DNA of 19,188 bases, taken from an uncultured Bacteroidales bacterium (GTDB lineage: Bacteria > Bacteroidota > Bacteroidia > Bacteroidales > Lentimicrobiaceae). Below, piece after piece: positions 967 through 17,097 of this stretch (positions are counted from its first letter, which is position 1; the number at the start of each line of letters is the position of its first letter). Made by a program: the position numbers and the translations under genes. Location of the stretch: NCBI GenBank assembly GCA_937864935.1, contig CALMDN010000522.1, positions 1-19,188 on the forward strand, given 5' to 3'. Below the pieces are notes generated by a model. That model was not told where the DNA came from. It did not search any database and worked only from the letters and a program-made list of their open reading frames with translations.

Positions 967-3606
967 TTACGATTTTTTTAAAAGTTTTTTTATTTCGTTG
1001 AGCTTCATCAGGGCTTCAACCGGGGTAAGTGTATTAATATCAGTATCCAGTATGTCTTCCCTTATCTGCTCCAGCAAAGGGTCGTTGAGCTGAATAAAAC
1101 TGAGCTGAAACGGATCGCCGGCAGATTTCCCCGGTTTCCGCTTCGATGCGCTGCCCTGCAACTGTCCGCCGCCATGCGACTTCTCAAGGGTGGCCAGCAG
1201 TTCGTTAGCCCTTTCAAGCAGTGATTGCGGCATTCCGGCCATCCTTGCCACGTGGATCCCGAAACTGTGTTCGCTTCCTCCCGGTTCAAGCTTGCGCATG
1301 AAAATAACCCTTTTGCCTGCCTCCTTAACCGAAATGTGGAAATTCCTGATCCGTGGCATCATCGATGCCATTTCATTCAGCTCGTGGTAGTGGGTAGCGA
1401 ACAATACCTTGGGCCGGAACAGCGGGTGCTGATGCAGAAACTCGGCGATGGCCCAGGCAATGCTGATCCCGTCATAGGTGCTTGTTCCCCTACCGATTTC
1501 ATCCAGCAGTATGAGGCTCCTGTTGCTGATGTTGTTGAGAATACTGGCTGTTTCGTTCATCTCCACCATAAAGGTTGATTCGCCCGATGAGATGTTGTCT
1601 GATGCTCCGACCCTTGTGAAGATTTTATCAACCAGCCCGATCTCGGCTGAATCGGCCGGAACAAAACATCCCGTCTGGGCCATGAGCACGATGAGGGCAG
1701 TCTGTCTAAGCAGGGCAGATTTTCCCGACATGTTGGGACCGGTAATGATGATGATCTGCTGCTGCTGATCATCCAGAAACACATCGTTGGTGATGTACGC
1801 CTCCCCTGCCGGCAGGTTCTTCTCAATTACCGGATGCCTTCCGCTTTTGATGCTCAGTGCGTATCCATCGTTGATTTGCGGACGGGTATATTTGTTCTGC
1901 AATGCAACGGCAGCGAACGACAGGAGACAATCGAGCCTGGCAACGATCAGGGCGTTGGCCTGTACTGCCGAAATATAATCATTCAGACTGAGAACCAGAT
2001 CATTGTAGAGTGTAGTCTAGATCTCCAGCATGCGTTCTTCTGCATTGAGAATCTTCTCCTCGTAGGTTTTCAGTTCAGGAGTAATGTATCTTTCACAGTT
2101 TACGAGGGTTTGTTTGCGGTCCCACTCCGGAGGAACTTTATCCTTATGGGTATTGGTAACCTCCAGGTAATAACCGAATACATTGTTGTAGGCTATTTTG
2201 AGTGAGGGGATTCCCGTGCGTTCCGACTCACGCTGCTGCAGCCTGATCAGGTAGTCCTTGCCAGAGTGGGCGAGTTCACGGATTTCGTCAAGCTCAGCCG
2301 AGATACCAGCTGCTATCACGTTGCCTTTATTTACAGCGACGGGAGGATCGGGATGAATCTGCTGCTCAATCTTACCGGTCATGAGTGTACAGGGATTCAG
2401 CTGATCGCCCATCTGCTGCATGGAAGCAACGCCTGAAGCAAAACACAGCTCTCTGATCGGCACCATGGCCTGCAAAGCCCTTTTCAGCTGAACCAGTTCC
2501 CTTGGGTTAATTCTGCCGGTTGCAACCTTGGAGATGATGCGTTCCAGGTCACCGATCATCCTGATCTGTTGTCTGAGCAATTCCGCAGCATCCTGATGAG
2601 TAACAAAATACTCCACCACATCAAGGCGTTCATTTACAGGAAGCCGGTCTTTCAGCGGCATGATCAGCCAGCGGCGCATCATGCGCGAGCCCATCGGAGA
2701 GATGGTTTTATCGAGCACTCCGATCAGGGTAGAGGCCTCATCGTTGGCCGACCCCAGAATTTCAAGATTGCGGATGGTGAATTTATCCAACCAGACATGG
2801 TGGTCCTCTTCGATACGGGAAAGCTGACAGATGTGCCCAACTTTATCATGTTGTGTTTCAGCGAGATAATGCAATGCAGCCCCCGCTGCTATGATGCCGT
2901 TGGTCATTTCGCTTACCCCGAACCCTTTCAGTGATGCTGTGTTGAAGTGCCTGAGCAGCAGTTCCTGACCAAAGTCGATGGTAAAAACCCAATCTTCGAA
3001 GGTGTTTATGTAAAATTTTTCTCCGAAAAGGCCCTGAAACTCCCCCCTTTTCGATTTCTGAATGATAATTTCGCTGGGGCGGAAGGTTTGCAGCAGTTTG
3101 TCGATATAATCGTTTGAGCCCTGGGCAACCAGGAATTCACCCGTAGAGATATCCAGGAAGGCGATACCGCTTGATTTGGGCAACAGGTGCACACTGGCCA
3201 GAAAATTGTTCTGCTTGTTTTCAAGCACTTTATCGTTGTACGAAACACCAGGGGTTACCAGTTCTGTAACGCCTCGCTTAACGATTTTTTTTGTAAGCTT
3301 CGGATCCTCAAGCTGATCGCAGATCGCTACCCTGTGACCAGCCCTGACCAGTTTGGGAAGGTAGGTATCAAGCGCATGGTGAGGAAATCCGGCCAGTTCA
3401 ACATATGCAGCTGCCCCGTTGGCCCTGCGGGTAAGAACAATGCCGAGTATCTCAGAGGTAGAAACAGCATCCTGACCGAAGGTTTCATAGAAATCCCCAA
3501 CCCTGAAAAGCAAAAGTGCATCAGGATATTTTGCCTTTATTGCATTGTATTGCTTCATTAGGGGTGTTTCGGCAATTTCACCCTTTTCTTTGACCTGCTT
3601 ACTCAT
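967..3606 (-). pseudogene. mutS: DNA mismatch repair protein MutS, interrupted by one in-frame TAG
   Basis: The full frame is 880 codons from ATG 3606 to TAA 967-969, a normal MutS length, with one internal TAG at codon 530. The N-terminal part has the mismatch-binding FYE motif (residues 39-41), the connector and core domains, and the conserved stretch [18 protein letters not shown]. After the TAG the same frame continues with [14 protein letters not shown] and RLDCLLSF. It then has the ATPase: Walker A GPNMSGKS (623-630), Walker B ending LLDE (702-703), ATHYHEL, and the helix-turn-helix tail [10 protein letters not shown]. MutS recognises mismatches and recruits MutL. The TAG would give a 529-residue product ending in the clamp/lever region, without the ATPase or dimer interface. 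No in-frame ATG occurs after the stop until Walker A itself, so a restart could not yield an intact ATPase. The family usually has an acidic residue at this point, so GAG to TAG is the simplest origin. A sequence error is the alternative. Confidence 0.93.
2017..2019 (-). other. mutS: Premature TAG codon inside mutS
   Basis: Codons before it read GAA CGC ATG CTG GAG ATC; codons after it read ACT ACA CTC TAC AAT. Both sides are recognisable MutS sequence in the same frame, so this is a substitution and not a frameshift. TAG acts as a real stop elsewhere in the window (7064-7066, directly followed by TAA), which argues against genome-wide amber recoding. Confidence 0.95.
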
Positions 3607-4588: not shown

Positions 4589-7066
4589 ATGAAAAAGTTA
4601 AGCTACAAATCGATTCTGTTGCTTCTCATTCTGATGTTCGGAGTTTCTCCGGTTTTTGTTTCCGCGCAGGACTCCGGCAAAGAAACCAAAGCTGCAAAAT
4701 CAACATTTGACAAGCATTTTTTCCTTCAGGCAAGTGGTGGAGTTTCGCAGTTTTTCGGCGATCTTAATGAAAATGCCCTGTTTAATGAAAGAACCAATTT
4801 CTTTTATGGCTTTGGTGCTGGTTATCAATTCAGCCCTGTTTTCGGAGTCCGTGGATTATTCAACAACGGATGGGTAGTCAGTACAAGAGAATCAACCGTC
4901 CTAAACGATAACCTCAGGATGTCGTCGAGTGTCTGGGATGGTCAGCTGAATCTTACAGCCAGCCTGACCAATCTTTTGTTCGGATACAGGCCTGAACGTT
5001 TCCTCAACTTCTACGTATTTTCAGGAGCTTCCTTCAGCAATTACGCTTCAGTTCTTTACAGAACCAATGGCACCGATGACTTCAATGATGATCAGGTAAT
5101 TGACCGTAACGGTCCGTTTGCTCCGGCTCCTTTTGACCAGGATGCTTATACAGCTATCGGTGTTCCTGTTGGTGCCGGTCTGAATTTCCGTCTGGCTGAA
5201 AAATGGGACCTCAACCTGGAATACAATGAGCGTTTCATCTTCAAAGATGATCTTGATCTGCTCGAATCAAATTCCAAAAACGATGCATACTCTACCCTGA
5301 TGCTGGGGGTTACTTATAAATTCAAACCGAGTGCCAACCTCAAATCAATGGAAAAGAATTACGGTCTGGTTAAATACGAAACCACCCCGGATCCTCTGGT
5401 AAAAGTCGGCGACACAGTCTGTGTAAATGTTAAGGTTATTTTCCCCGAGAAATATTTCGCCAAGAAGGCTGCCATGAACTTCCAGCCCGAAATCAAATAC
5501 GCCGGTACAACCCGCAAACTCAAAGCAGTTAATTTCCAGGGCGAGCAGGTTAACGGTGACGGCATTGTAATCAATTACAAAACCGGAGGTACCTATACTT
5601 ATGTTGATTGCATTCCTTACGAACCGGGCATGAATGCTTCTGATCTGGTTGTATCACCTTCACTTTACGAACCCAAGGAAGCTGTTGTACTCAATGCAAC
5701 TCCTGAGCAGATCGGTGCCAAATACAAAGTGATCGATTTACCTGAGCGTAAACTTGCAGACGGTGTCATCATCACCGGAACCAGAATTTTCCACGATGAG
5801 GACCTCATTGTTGCCGATCACGGTTATGTTAAAGAAACCATCATCAGCAAGGATGCAAAGATTTACTTCAAGGTAAACATGCATGACCTCAACTGGAACC
5901 TCCCGCTCAACCGCACCAACATGGTTCAGCAGAAACTCGACGAACTGGCCGGCTTCATCAAAATGGGCTATACCATCCGCGATATTGACATCAATGCATG
6001 GGCATCACCGGAAGGTGAAGAAAGCTACAACCAGGGACTGTCAGAGCGTCGTGCAATGGCCGGTAAGAAACAGGTTGTTGATATGTTCAAGAAAATGGCC
6101 AAAGGAAAGAATCCGGTCATCAACATTCCGGATCCGGAAGCTACCATCAAATTCAACTCCTATGCCAATGGTGAAGACTGGAACGGATTTATGCAGGCTG
6201 TTGAAGGTTCGAACCTGGCCGACAAACGCATCATCATGAATGTGGTTAATTCACAGAGCGATGTTTCAAAACGTGAGCAGGAAATCCGCAACATGGCAAT
6301 CGTTTACAAGGAAATTGAAGATGACATTCTTCCTCCGCTCCGCCGCGTTGAAATCAAAGTAAACTGCTTTGAACCCAAGAAAACCGATGCAGAAATTTCA
6401 TCTCTTGCAGTGAGCGATCCTTCGAAGCTCACCGAAGCTGAAATCCTCTATGCTGCTACCCTTACCGAAGATATGAATACCAGAATGAAGATCTATCAGA
6501 ACGCTGCCACCCAGTTTGCCAACAGCTACAAAGCCAACAACAACCTGGCCGTTTGTGAACTCCGCAACGGAAAACTCGGCGAAGCTGCTTCACACCTGGC
6601 CAAAGCTGATCAGGTTGAGCCCAACAACAAAGCTGTTGTGAACAACCTCGGAGCCCTCGCTTCAAAGAAAGGTGACTACAAAAATGCAGCTGCACAGTAT
6701 GCCAAAGCCAAAACCCTGGGTGCTGACGTAAGCTACAACATGGGAATCACTGAGCTTGCCGCCAACAAATACGACAAGGCCCTCAGCTCATTCGGAAGCA
6801 AGAAATGCAACAGCAATGTAGCTCTTGCTCAGATCATGACAGGTAAGTATTCAGAAGCTTCTAACTCACTGAAGTGTGCTCCTGAATCAGGCCACAACTA
6901 TTACCTGCTTGCTGTAGCCGCTGCCCGCAATGCCGACGAAAAAGGCATGCTCGACAACCTCACCAAGGCATTTGAAAAAGACCCGGCCCTCAAAGCCCAG
7001 GCTGCTGAAGACAGGGAATTTATCAAATACTTCAAGAACGCTGCTTTCACAGCACTTGTAAAGTAG
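4589..7066 (+). CDS. Outer-membrane protein: N-terminal barrel, OmpA-like domain, TPR tail
   Basis: This 825-residue protein has a signal peptide (cleavage likely after VSA, residue 26). Residues about 40-247 are rich in alternating aromatic/polar strands and end VTYKFKP, consistent with an outer-membrane beta-barrel. Two or more beta-rich domains follow (about 260-420). Residues about 424-596 hold a divergent OmpA-C-like module, with IDINAWASPEGEESYNQGLS and the ERRA signature (487-490); such domains bind peptidoglycan. Residues about 610-815 are helical TPR-like repeats (for example NNLAVCELRNGKLGEAA and NNLGALASKKGDYKNAA). The likely role is anchoring the outer membrane to the wall and scaffolding partners. 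Codon choice is strongly biased (AAC, ATC, CTC, GAA), and with its perfect promoter and strong terminator it is probably abundant. It ends in tandem stops TAG TAA. The architecture recalls PorE or other OmpA/TPR gliding and secretion proteins, but I cannot assign it to one of them. Confidence 0.85.
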   Translation: MKKLSYKSILLLLILMFGVSPVFVSAQDSGKETKAAKSTFDKHFFLQASGGVSQFFGDLNENALFNERTNFFYGFGAGYQFSPVFGVRGLFNNGWVVSTRESTVLNDNLRMSSSVWDGQLNLTASLTNLLFGYRPERFLNFYVFSGASFSNYASVLYRTNGTDDFNDDQVIDRNGPFAPAPFDQDAYTAIGVPVGAGLNFRLAEKWDLNLEYNERFIFKDDLDLLESNSKNDAYSTLMLGVTYKFKPSANLKSMEKNYGLVKYETTPDPLVKVGDTVCVNVKVIFPEKYFAKKAAMNFQPEIKYAGTTRKLKAVNFQGEQVNGDGIVINYKTGGTYTYVDCIPYEPGMNASDLVVSPSLYEPKEAVVLNATPEQIGAKYKVIDLPERKLADGVIITGTRIFHDEDLIVADHGYVKETIISKDAKIYFKVNMHDLNWNLPLNRTNMVQQKLDELAGFIKMGYTIRDIDINAWASPEGEESYNQGLSERRAMAGKKQVVDMFKKMAKGKNPVINIPDPEATIKFNSYANGEDWNGFMQAVEGSNLADKRIIMNVVNSQSDVSKREQEIRNMAIVYKEIEDDILPPLRRVEIKVNCFEPKKTDAEISSLAVSDPSKLTEAEILYAATLTEDMNTRMKIYQNAATQFANSYKANNNLAVCELRNGKLGEAASHLAKADQVEPNNKAVVNNLGALASKKGDYKNAAAQYAKAKTLGADVSYNMGITELAANKYDKALSSFGSKKCNSNVALAQIMTGKYSEASNSLKCAPESGHNYYLLAVAAARNADEKGMLDNLTKAFEKDPALKAQAAEDREFIKYFKNAAFTALVK

Positions 7067-14286: not shown

Positions 14287-17097
14287 GTGAAGAAAACCCT
14301 GCTTCTTTCCTTTTCATTGCTGTTCCTTCTTAGCTTTAGTGTCAGTGGTCAGTTCTACAGCATCGGTCAATCCAGGGCCGTATTGAAGTGGGAGAGAATT
14401 GAGAACGGGTATTTCAGTGTAGTATATCCGGCCGGACATCAGGCGAAAGCAGAAGAAGTGCTGAACGGTTTTACCCTGGCGGCTGAAGAGGTCTCCCGCA
14501 GCCTTGGGGTAAAGCCTCCCGTTGTTCCCCTTGTGCTGCATACCGGCAGCGCCATCTCCAACGCCTATGCTATCTGGGCTCCGAAACGCATTGAGCTGCT
14601 CAGCACCCCGCCCCAGGATTCCTACGCCCAACCCTGGATTCAGCAACTGGCCCTCCACGAATATCGGCATGCTGTGCAGCTATCTTCCCTGAACAGGGGT
14701 GTTACCCGTTTTGCAGGATTCCTTTTCGGACAGCAGGTTGCCGGTGTTTCTGCAGGCCTCTTTGTACCTAAATGGTTTCTTGAAGGTGATGCTGTCGTTT
14801 CAGAGACCTCGCATGGCTATTCGGGAAGGGGAAGAAACCCGGCGTTTCACCGTCCGTGGGTAGCCCAGCTTGCTGAAAAAGGAGCGTACAGCTTTCCCAA
14901 AGCTACCCTTGGATCATACCGTGATTTCGTCCCGGATGTATACACTACCGGTTATCAGATAGTTGCCACATCAAGAATGAAATACGGGCCCGGGCTCTGG
15001 GAAAATGCCATGAAAACCTCAGCCTTGAAACCCTGGCTGATTTCCCCTTTTAACAAGGGACTGAAGAGCGTATCCGGATTGAATAAAAAAGGCCTCTACC
15101 TGGAAGCAGTTGACTACCAGAACAAACAAACAGCCTCCGTTACGCAGGGTACAGGCCATAGAGTAATCCCAGCTGCAACAAAAAATCAGTATGTAAATTA
15201 CCTGAATCCGCAAAGAATAAACGATTCTGTGGTGGTTGCCCTTAAAAAGTCGCTTGGCAAACCTCCGTTGATTGTCGCTGTGAATGAAAATGGCCGAGAA
15301 AAGATACTCTGCACCCCAGGAATTATCCTTGACGAGCATATCTCTGCCGGAAACGGGCTGGTGGCATGGGCTGAATACCGGCCCCACATCCGTTGGGAGA
15401 CTGAAAACTACACAGAAATAGTGATTTACAGGGTTTCCGATGCAAGGATCCGGCGCCTTCCGCTGAAAGGCAGATTTTATGCTCCGGAAATCAGTCCCGA
15501 CGGTAAGCAGATAGCAGCCATTGAATACGATAAAGCAGGAAATTGCCGGATCATTGTTATCATGGAGGATTCTCTGCGCCATTATCCGGTACCCGTTGGT
15601 ATGCACGCTTCCACACCGGCCTGGTCTGCCGATCAGCGATCACTGGCAATGGTAATCCTTTCAGACAAAGGAAAATCCCTTGCCCTGCTCAGTCTGGGAG
15701 ATGGCAGTTTCGGCTTCCTTACCCCTTTCTCTTACAGGGAAATCAGCAATCCGGTATTCAACGGGGATGAGATCATCTACACAGAAACGTTTGAAGAGAA
15801 GAGTCAGCTTTTTTCACTTAACATAACTACAGGGAACAAACAGAGAATCACCGATGTCAGGTTCGGTGCAGATTATCCTTCTGTCCACAACCGGCAAATT
15901 CTCTTCAATGACTACACAGCCAACGGATTCCGCATCGGCATGGTGAATCCTGACACCCTGACAATGTTATCGGTGAGTGAAAACAGAAACAGCTGGGAAC
16001 TGGCAGAAGCGATGTCGGCCCAGGAAACAAGGCTTGATTTCAGCCGGTTGACCTCCGATACCGCTGTTAAACCGATGCCTTACAAAGAATGGAAGCACCT
16101 GTTCGGCATTCACAGCTGGGCACCGCTATACATTGATATTGGCGGGGAAACCGCCCGGCCCGGAGTTTCGGTTATGAGCCAGAACCTTCTGAGTACCCTG
16201 TTCATCACAGCAGGCTATGACTACAACCTGCAGGAAGAAACCGGCATGTGGAAGGCTGACGTCTCGTGGAAGGGCTGGTATCCCGAGTTCAGGGCGGTGG
16301 TTTCTCAGGGAAAAAGGGCTGCTACGGCCCTCAACAGCGAGGATCAGCCGGAACGGTTTACCTGGAATGAGACCAACCTTGACGCCGGCATCACCCAAAA
16401 CCTGAACCTTTCAAGGGGGGCATATACCGCAGGCATGTCAGGGAATGCTGATTTCAATTTCAGCAGGATTTCCCATGACCAATCCACCCCCGGTGACTTT
16501 ACCAGTGGTGATCTGACCGGATTGAGTTACCGGACCTCAGGGTATATCTATAAAAGACAGGCCTACCGCGACCTGGCACCCGGATTGGGAGTAAACATGG
16601 AGCTCCGCTTCCGGCACACCCCGTTCGGTCAGATTAAAGCCGGCGAAATCGTTGCTGCTCAGACGATGATATACCTTCCCGGACTGGCAGCCAATCATTC
16701 CATTTCCCTGTATGGAGGAATTCAGTTTTCCGATCCCGGCAAATACCGCTTTTCCAACCTTGTCAGCACCAGCAGGGGCTACTCTACAGAGATCAGAGGC
16801 AACGAAATACTGAGCTTCAAATTCGCGTACCGCTTTCCTCTGCTTTACCCTGACCTGGCCCTGGGGGGACTTTTTTACCTGAAAAGAATCCGAACAGGGT
16901 TGTTTTACGACTACACCATTGCAAAAAATCCTGATCCGCAGTCAGTTTATACTTCCTCAGGACTCGACATGGTTGGGGATTTTCATCTTTTCGGGCTCAG
17001 TATACCGGTGAGCGCGGGAATCAGAACCCTGTATACAGGCCTTGACGGTAAAGTAAGTACCAGTCTGCTCTTCTCGGTAAATTTTTATGATTACTGA
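14287..17097 (+). CDS. Secreted HExxH metallopeptidase-like protein with TolB-like propeller and C-terminal barrel
   Basis: This 936-residue protein starts at GTG 14287, 47 bp after the pseudouridine synthase gene, and has a signal peptide (about 1-21). Residues 122-128 read ALHEYRH, an HExxH zinc site, and WFLEGDA (163-169) offers Glu166 as the third ligand, as in gluzincin (peptidase MA-like) enzymes. Residues about 290-560 show repeated strand patterns such as YAPEISPDGKQIAAIEYD and STPAWSADQRSLAMV, typical of TolB/PD40 propeller blades. From about 605 the protein is beta-rich with amphipathic strands (LFITAGYDYNL, SFKFAYRFPLLYPDLALGG) and ends in an aromatic residue (NFYDY), consistent with an outer-membrane barrel. 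I infer an outer-membrane protease or processing factor; the substrate is unknown. The zinc motif is seen directly; the propeller and barrel are by pattern. Confidence 0.82.
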   Translation: MKKTLLLSFSLLFLLSFSVSGQFYSIGQSRAVLKWERIENGYFSVVYPAGHQAKAEEVLNGFTLAAEEVSRSLGVKPPVVPLVLHTGSAISNAYAIWAPKRIELLSTPPQDSYAQPWIQQLALHEYRHAVQLSSLNRGVTRFAGFLFGQQVAGVSAGLFVPKWFLEGDAVVSETSHGYSGRGRNPAFHRPWVAQLAEKGAYSFPKATLGSYRDFVPDVYTTGYQIVATSRMKYGPGLWENAMKTSALKPWLISPFNKGLKSVSGLNKKGLYLEAVDYQNKQTASVTQGTGHRVIPAATKNQYVNYLNPQRINDSVVVALKKSLGKPPLIVAVNENGREKILCTPGIILDEHISAGNGLVAWAEYRPHIRWETENYTEIVIYRVSDARIRRLPLKGRFYAPEISPDGKQIAAIEYDKAGNCRIIVIMEDSLRHYPVPVGMHASTPAWSADQRSLAMVILSDKGKSLALLSLGDGSFGFLTPFSYREISNPVFNGDEIIYTETFEEKSQLFSLNITTGNKQRITDVRFGADYPSVHNRQILFNDYTANGFRIGMVNPDTLTMLSVSENRNSWELAEAMSAQETRLDFSRLTSDTAVKPMPYKEWKHLFGIHSWAPLYIDIGGETARPGVSVMSQNLLSTLFITAGYDYNLQEETGMWKADVSWKGWYPEFRAVVSQGKRAATALNSEDQPERFTWNETNLDAGITQNLNLSRGAYTAGMSGNADFNFSRISHDQSTPGDFTSGDLTGLSYRTSGYIYKRQAYRDLAPGLGVNMELRFRHTPFGQIKAGEIVAAQTMIYLPGLAANHSISLYGGIQFSDPGKYRFSNLVSTSRGYSTEIRGNEILSFKFAYRFPLLYPDLALGGLFYLKRIRTGLFYDYTIAKNPDPQSVYTSSGLDMVGDFHLFGLSIPVSAGIRTLYTGLDGKVSTSLLFSVNFYDY

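Follow-up and report, generated by a model that had tools for sequence, protein, structure and literature searches.

A single in-frame TAG at codon 530 of mutS in an uncultured Bacteroidales genome: a recent null allele or a one-base sequence error

Mutators that lack MutS are already well known, and a real allele of the kind described here would add a case rather than a principle. The Elizabethkingia anophelis isolate CSID 3015183688 is reported as a mutS hypermutator, its change standing among nonsense transversions such as GAA to TAA and GAG to TAG (PMC5458099). This is the closest precedent seen; it comes from the same phylum, Bacteroidota, and concerns the same sort of mutS nonsense transversion. 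It is, however, an isolated strain in which a long branch and the mutation spectrum were seen in a mutY-defective background (PMC5458099), whereas here the evidence is sequence, and mutY is uninterrupted.

Mismatch repair genes can also be interrupted reversibly. Two further reports describe such an interruption of Vibrio mutS by a mobile element (PMC5296598) and of Streptococcus mutL by SpyCI (PMC3430984). The present locus is likewise an interrupted repair gene, but it holds no insert and its frame is collinear with those of relatives; the switching found in the Vibrio and SpyCI cases is impossible for a point change such as this one. Among the titles listed, none names this lineage. The MutS1 family (TIGR01070 / NF003810) is marked by domains I to V with Walker A and B motifs, and these are likewise encoded here in an 879-codon frame, which differs in being interrupted by one TAG at codon 530.

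The mutS frame and its stop codon

The stretch of DNA analysed, called the window below, is 19,188 nucleotides long and corresponds to C522, one of the 589 contigs of G000, an assembly of metagenome type with 3,003,338 bases that is 72.5% complete and 3.32% contaminated. Rfam recognised only two tRNAs over the window. The features of its mutS locus are as follows.

967..3606, minus strand: mutS, 879 codons plus TAA, broken at codon 530 (TIGR01070, 890.3 bits for the whole frame)
2020..3606, minus strand: open reading frame of 529 aa with MutS domains I to IV (Pfam) and GDFYETF at residues 37-43
2017..2019, minus strand: in-frame TAG, codon 530; GAA or GAG in relatives (frame translation and comparison of loci)
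967..2016, minus strand: 349 codons plus TAA after the stop, with the remainder of the lever, the domain V ATPase and the C-terminal tail
967..1902, minus strand: possible restart reading frame of 311 aa from the TTG at codon 569

The minus-strand frame from 3606 to 967 contains exactly two stops in its 880 codons, the TAG at codon 530 and the terminal TAA at codon 880, which confirms the claim of the first-pass annotation that a single TAG splits a full-length MutS frame. Pfam MutS_I, II, III and IV were all matched by the 529-aa reading frame, and MutS_V was matched over its entire 188-position profile by the part after the stop. On TIGR01070 (840 positions) the two parts covered positions 2-507 and 511-840, nearly without gaps. 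As these matches are almost contiguous, only the stop parts the two halves, and the further claim that the halves are conserved, in frame and free of other damage was borne out.

The whole frame, in which the stop was read through by the search program, scored 890.3 bits against the TIGR01070 cut-off of 641.7; at the DNA level, all five MutS domains are present in one frame above the family cut-off. The 529-aa product alone scored 481.2 bits with TIGR01070, which is below that cut-off, and 554.7 bits with NF003810, which is above the cut-off of 480. The TAG leaves the MutS1 gene without an uninterrupted open frame and, assuming normal termination, the domain V ATPase is separated from the mismatch-binding domain I and the two do not occur in one polypeptide. 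With MutS_IV extending to residue 525 and MutS_V starting only at residue 619, the stop falls between the clamp and the ATPase; the 529-aa product stops short of MutS_V and was rightly described as lacking the ATPase.

In an alignment, codon 530 corresponded to position 524 of the E. coli MutS chain 7ai5_A, and the region around it belongs to the lever stretch of MutS. GDFYETF (37-43) is the mismatch-binding motif, GPNMSGKS (623-630) is Walker A and ILLDEIGRG (699-707) is a further ATPase motif. A run of eight T on the plus strand (eight A in the coding strand) lies at 3285-3292 inside mutS, near codon 106; it is in frame here and is a natural slippage site. Repeat-driven slippage or misassembly at the stop itself was considered and rejected, since two short imperfect direct repeats and no inverted repeats were found within 1850-2200.

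Codon 530 in relatives and constraint on the gene

Glutamate was present at codon 530 in all 119 homologous proteins compared (the best 120 listed of 8000 scored, less the window's own), and a glutamate codon was present in all 127 related mutS loci fetched, which comprise 17 of the same genus and wider sets of 30 and 80 (the latter being the best 80 of 589 candidates), with at least five species counted twice. Full matches were obtained in 18 genomes of the genus, with GAA in 11, GAG in 6 and TAG only in the window; a 19th, G015, has a 3' mutS fragment only. The 30 and 80 further loci always showed GAA or GAG, and the matched stretch was free of stops. A mutS1 above the cut-off was detected in 57 of 60 genomes, and a stop was found only in the window's and in none of the 56 others. 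In 393 genomes sampled from the order, no mutS stop was seen among the best-scoring matches listed, which did not include the window's own. The nearest genome, G011, has a MutS that is 97% identical in a collinear region, with GAG at codon 530. The comparison of sister strains for GAG against TAG, which the first-pass annotation had suggested, has now been made, and gave GAG in G011 and glutamate in every relative examined.

A still closer protein was found in P0002, a full-length MutS of 879 aa that represents a cluster of 7 sequences and differs from the window frame at only 4 of 879 residues (343, 413, 530 and 588). So small a difference indicates that an intact allele exists close by, and the strain that carries P0002 probably belongs to the same population or to a very near one. 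At residue 413 the window has the common I (118/119 homologs) and P0002 is the odd one, while the window's L343 is shared by 6/119 homologs and its S588 by 3/119. The recurrence of L343 and S588 suggests that the contig reads like a real strain and not like a noisy consensus. The 936-aa gene of the window was tried as a second marker on the P0002 contig, and its best match of 93% made it of no use.

The 529-aa form (P0001) was represented among the best 120 of 8000 scored by one sequence on one contig, which is the window itself. When the 349-aa downstream part served as the query, the best match was 83% identical (best 120 of 8000 scored); the window's own fragment was not among the matches, so that this search is uninformative on split copies. 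Four other proteins (P0175, P0128, P0172 and P0230) are MutS fragments, 348-572 aa long and with the ATPase domain retained, on contigs ranging from 87 to 616 kb; they may represent broken mutS genes, indel errors or genes at contig ends in other assemblies. The named close homologs are labelled 'Bacteroidales bacterium' and 'Bacteroidetes bacterium', and those further off 'Lentimicrobium sp.', Lentimicrobium being within Bacteroidales.

Comparison with G011 over 880 codons, including the stop, gave 263 synonymous and 25 nonsynonymous codon differences. These were polarised with two outgroups, G017 and G009, with the stop excluded. In codons 531-879, the window lineage carried 3 nonsynonymous and 31 synonymous changes and the G011 lineage also 3 and 31, with 6 and 35 assigned to neither; in codons 1-529, the counts were 2 and 43 for the window lineage, 4 and 54 for G011, and 6 and 69 for neither. 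Relaxed selection after the stop was rejected, as equal post-stop counts in the window and G011 leave no relaxed constraint visible. The pattern suggests that mutS was working until very recently, or is working still. The earlier view that the change is recent is thus supported by the purifying selection that extends past the stop and by the near-identical intact P0002. Polarised fourfold sites in mutS showed 4 transitions and 7 transversions on the window lineage and 8 and 9 on that of G011, changes which are too few and too old to show an excess of transitions.

These counts also bear on whether the lineage has lost mismatch repair and keeps mutS only as an old pseudogene. This could account for the fact that no mutL was found in the G000 assembly, where two weak matches fell under the cut-off, although 17 of 18 further genomes in the genus carry the gene. 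However, 263 synonymous against 25 nonsynonymous differences show no decay, there is no post-stop excess on the window lineage, and the absence of mutL fits a completeness of 72.5%, the sole other genome without mutL being 78% complete. Incompleteness of the assembly is most likely the reason for the missing mutL, and we regard the old pseudogene as extremely unlikely.

The proposed loss of repair presupposes that no intact mutS of the same subfamily exists elsewhere in the genome. A profile search found no second mutS1, but the assembly is 72.5% complete; by that estimate 27.5% of the genome lies outside it, and the result is not final. The other two PF00488 matches were rejected as mutS1, one being a MutS2 (812 aa, above its own cut-off) and the other a MutS-related protein of 598 aa that fell under every mutS cut-off. 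The latter, at L140:4307-6100 (contig C556), has a C-terminal MutS_V-type ATPase, and open frames of about 600 aa matching in the same way were observed in a number of relatives. The mutY gene is uninterrupted (model positions 2-269 of 277), by which a broken mutY, as in Elizabethkingia, was rejected as the source of a transversion.

Reading through or restarting at the stop

Conservation and constraint on both halves are also what would be expected of a gene that is read through, with UAG reassigned or suppressed by a tRNA and full-length MutS still made. Several observations speak against this. TAG closes 34 of the 167 long frames (at least 200 codons, ending within the contig) in a sample of 80 contigs, mutS included, and it also ends the 825-aa gene at 4589-7066 of the window. 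No CUA anticodon was present among the 18 tRNA genes found, which are an incomplete set, and the plain glutamate codon in the relatives examined gives no history of use. Inside the genes of the 80-contig sample no further TAG was recognised, and the signature of UAG reassignment, in which TAG is absent as a terminator and frequent inside genes, was not seen. We therefore consider TAG to be an ordinary stop here and reassignment unlikely, and the likelihood that the stop is bypassed by either route is very low.

Downstream of the stop, no ATG occurs in the frame until codon 626, within GPNMSGKS (623-630). The earlier statement that no ATG allows a restart before Walker A stands as worded, but TTG at codon 569 and GTG at codon 609 precede that ATG and could serve as alternative starts. 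Restart at either of them is possible and might retain the ATPase domain, and the restarted fragment would be without the mismatch-binding domain. The TTG is not conserved, the sister G011 having ATA. It could be imagined that the 529-aa piece assembles into a split but working MutS with a second piece, restarted at TTG 569 or GTG 609, since both codons lie upstream of the ATPase domain. Against this, the break falls between the clamp and the ATPase, one of the two starts is the unconserved TTG, and a stop at codon 530 occurs in none of the relatives examined; a working split protein is hardly credible.

Assembly quality and the reality of the allele

Other interrupted genes were sought in 80 contigs (387,249 bases), namely the window plus 79 contigs (368,061 bases) taken from the 588 others. 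A join was counted when a single stop separated two same-frame open stretches, each of 50 codons or more, with coding-like codon use on both sides. The scan detects single stops only, frameshifts being invisible to it, and its sensitivity, estimated on the training frames themselves, was 0.55 with the strict score and 0.68 with the looser one. There were 459 same-frame single-stop joins in the 80 contigs, and the mutS join ranked first, with the highest coding score on both sides. Under the looser score there were 45 joins, 22 of which had a start codon no more than 10 codons past the stop and were taken as gene ends, unchecked individually. Eighteen of the remaining 23 lay beneath a longer open frame, leaving five including mutS. 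Two of these, L171 and L170, resemble ordinary gene ends, and the other two, L160 and L147, are situated opposite gene-like open frames. No second stop-interrupted gene was recognised in the 80 contigs, at a sensitivity of about 0.6 and for stops only. It suggested that a grossly faulty assembly is unlikely, the result excluding a high error rate but not a single wrong base.

Within the window, 12 of the 13 other frames end where the aligned G011 frame ends, and the 13th (3-392) runs off the window. Among the 13 window frames with comparable ends, the G011 frame runs on only at mutS, by 350 codons. The open state of the frames was the criterion of their selection, so that 13 other genes free of stops are no test, while the comparison of ends with G011 is one. 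Differences in length from G011 were found in the poorly alignable frame 3-392, in the 825-aa gene (three bases), and in dnaK and panB (one base each). In dnaK and panB the frames were probably called too long at the 5' end and contain the indels there, because the match starts only at residue 16. The 936-aa protein at 14287-17097 is fast-changing, with 149 nonsynonymous codon differences from G011 in 937 codons, and a 50% identical relative in Lentimicrobium saccharophilum carries the name 'peptidase MA superfamily'.

A sequence or assembly error, which the first-pass annotation also named, would mean either that one base is wrong because the contig is thinly covered, or that the assembler chose a minority variant or a damaged molecule, in an organism whose mutS is intact. 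In keeping with this, the 529-aa form was seen on a single contig while the near-identical intact protein stands for seven sequences, and the assembly is fragmented and incomplete (589 contigs, 72.5%). Of the 7902 possible single substitutions in the reading frame, 285 (3.6%) create a stop, so that a single error of this sort, in one genome and in a conserved gene, is unremarkable and would be picked out on a first reading. G>T changes from oxidised guanine are a known sequencing artefact (PMC12390751, PMC8748355). On the other side, no second stop-interrupted gene was recognised in the 79 other contigs, in 368,061 bases and at a sensitivity of 0.55-0.68. We give an error of this kind a probability a little short of even.

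The other main reading, for which we see an even chance, is that one strain of an uncultured Bacteroidales species recently acquired a natural null allele of mutS. It would have arisen by a single base change in the glutamate codon at position 530; as the sister species has GAG, a G:C to T:A transversion is the simplest change that gives TAG. Translation would stop just past the clamp domain, and the product would be without the ATPase and the C-terminal parts. MutS dimerises through its C-terminal parts. The truncated protein would be expected to form no ATP-driven sliding clamp and to recruit no MutL, and the strain would become a mismatch-repair-deficient mutator. Three points here are inferred, that the base is real, that the protein is inactive and that the strain is a mutator, the last from known MutS biology. 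Accumulated damage of the mismatch-repair type was not found in the window, and a very recent loss would leave none.

Taken together, a real null allele and a one-base consensus error appear about equally likely, and all the remaining readings are improbable even when combined; these probabilities are judgements and were not computed. That a MutS-null mutator dominated the sample and was caught soon after the mutation, with intact alleles persisting in close relatives, is a tentative picture which we put below even odds.

If the TAG is an error, the locus shows that a repair gene found broken in a metagenome-assembled genome is, without reads, no proof of a mutator. If the base is real, the reads of the sample could show the loss of mutS in an uncultured bacterium through the mutation spectrum, homopolymer indels and the allele frequency. 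Should the null allele be true, it would mean that a hypermutator rose in a natural community to an abundance sufficient for assembly.
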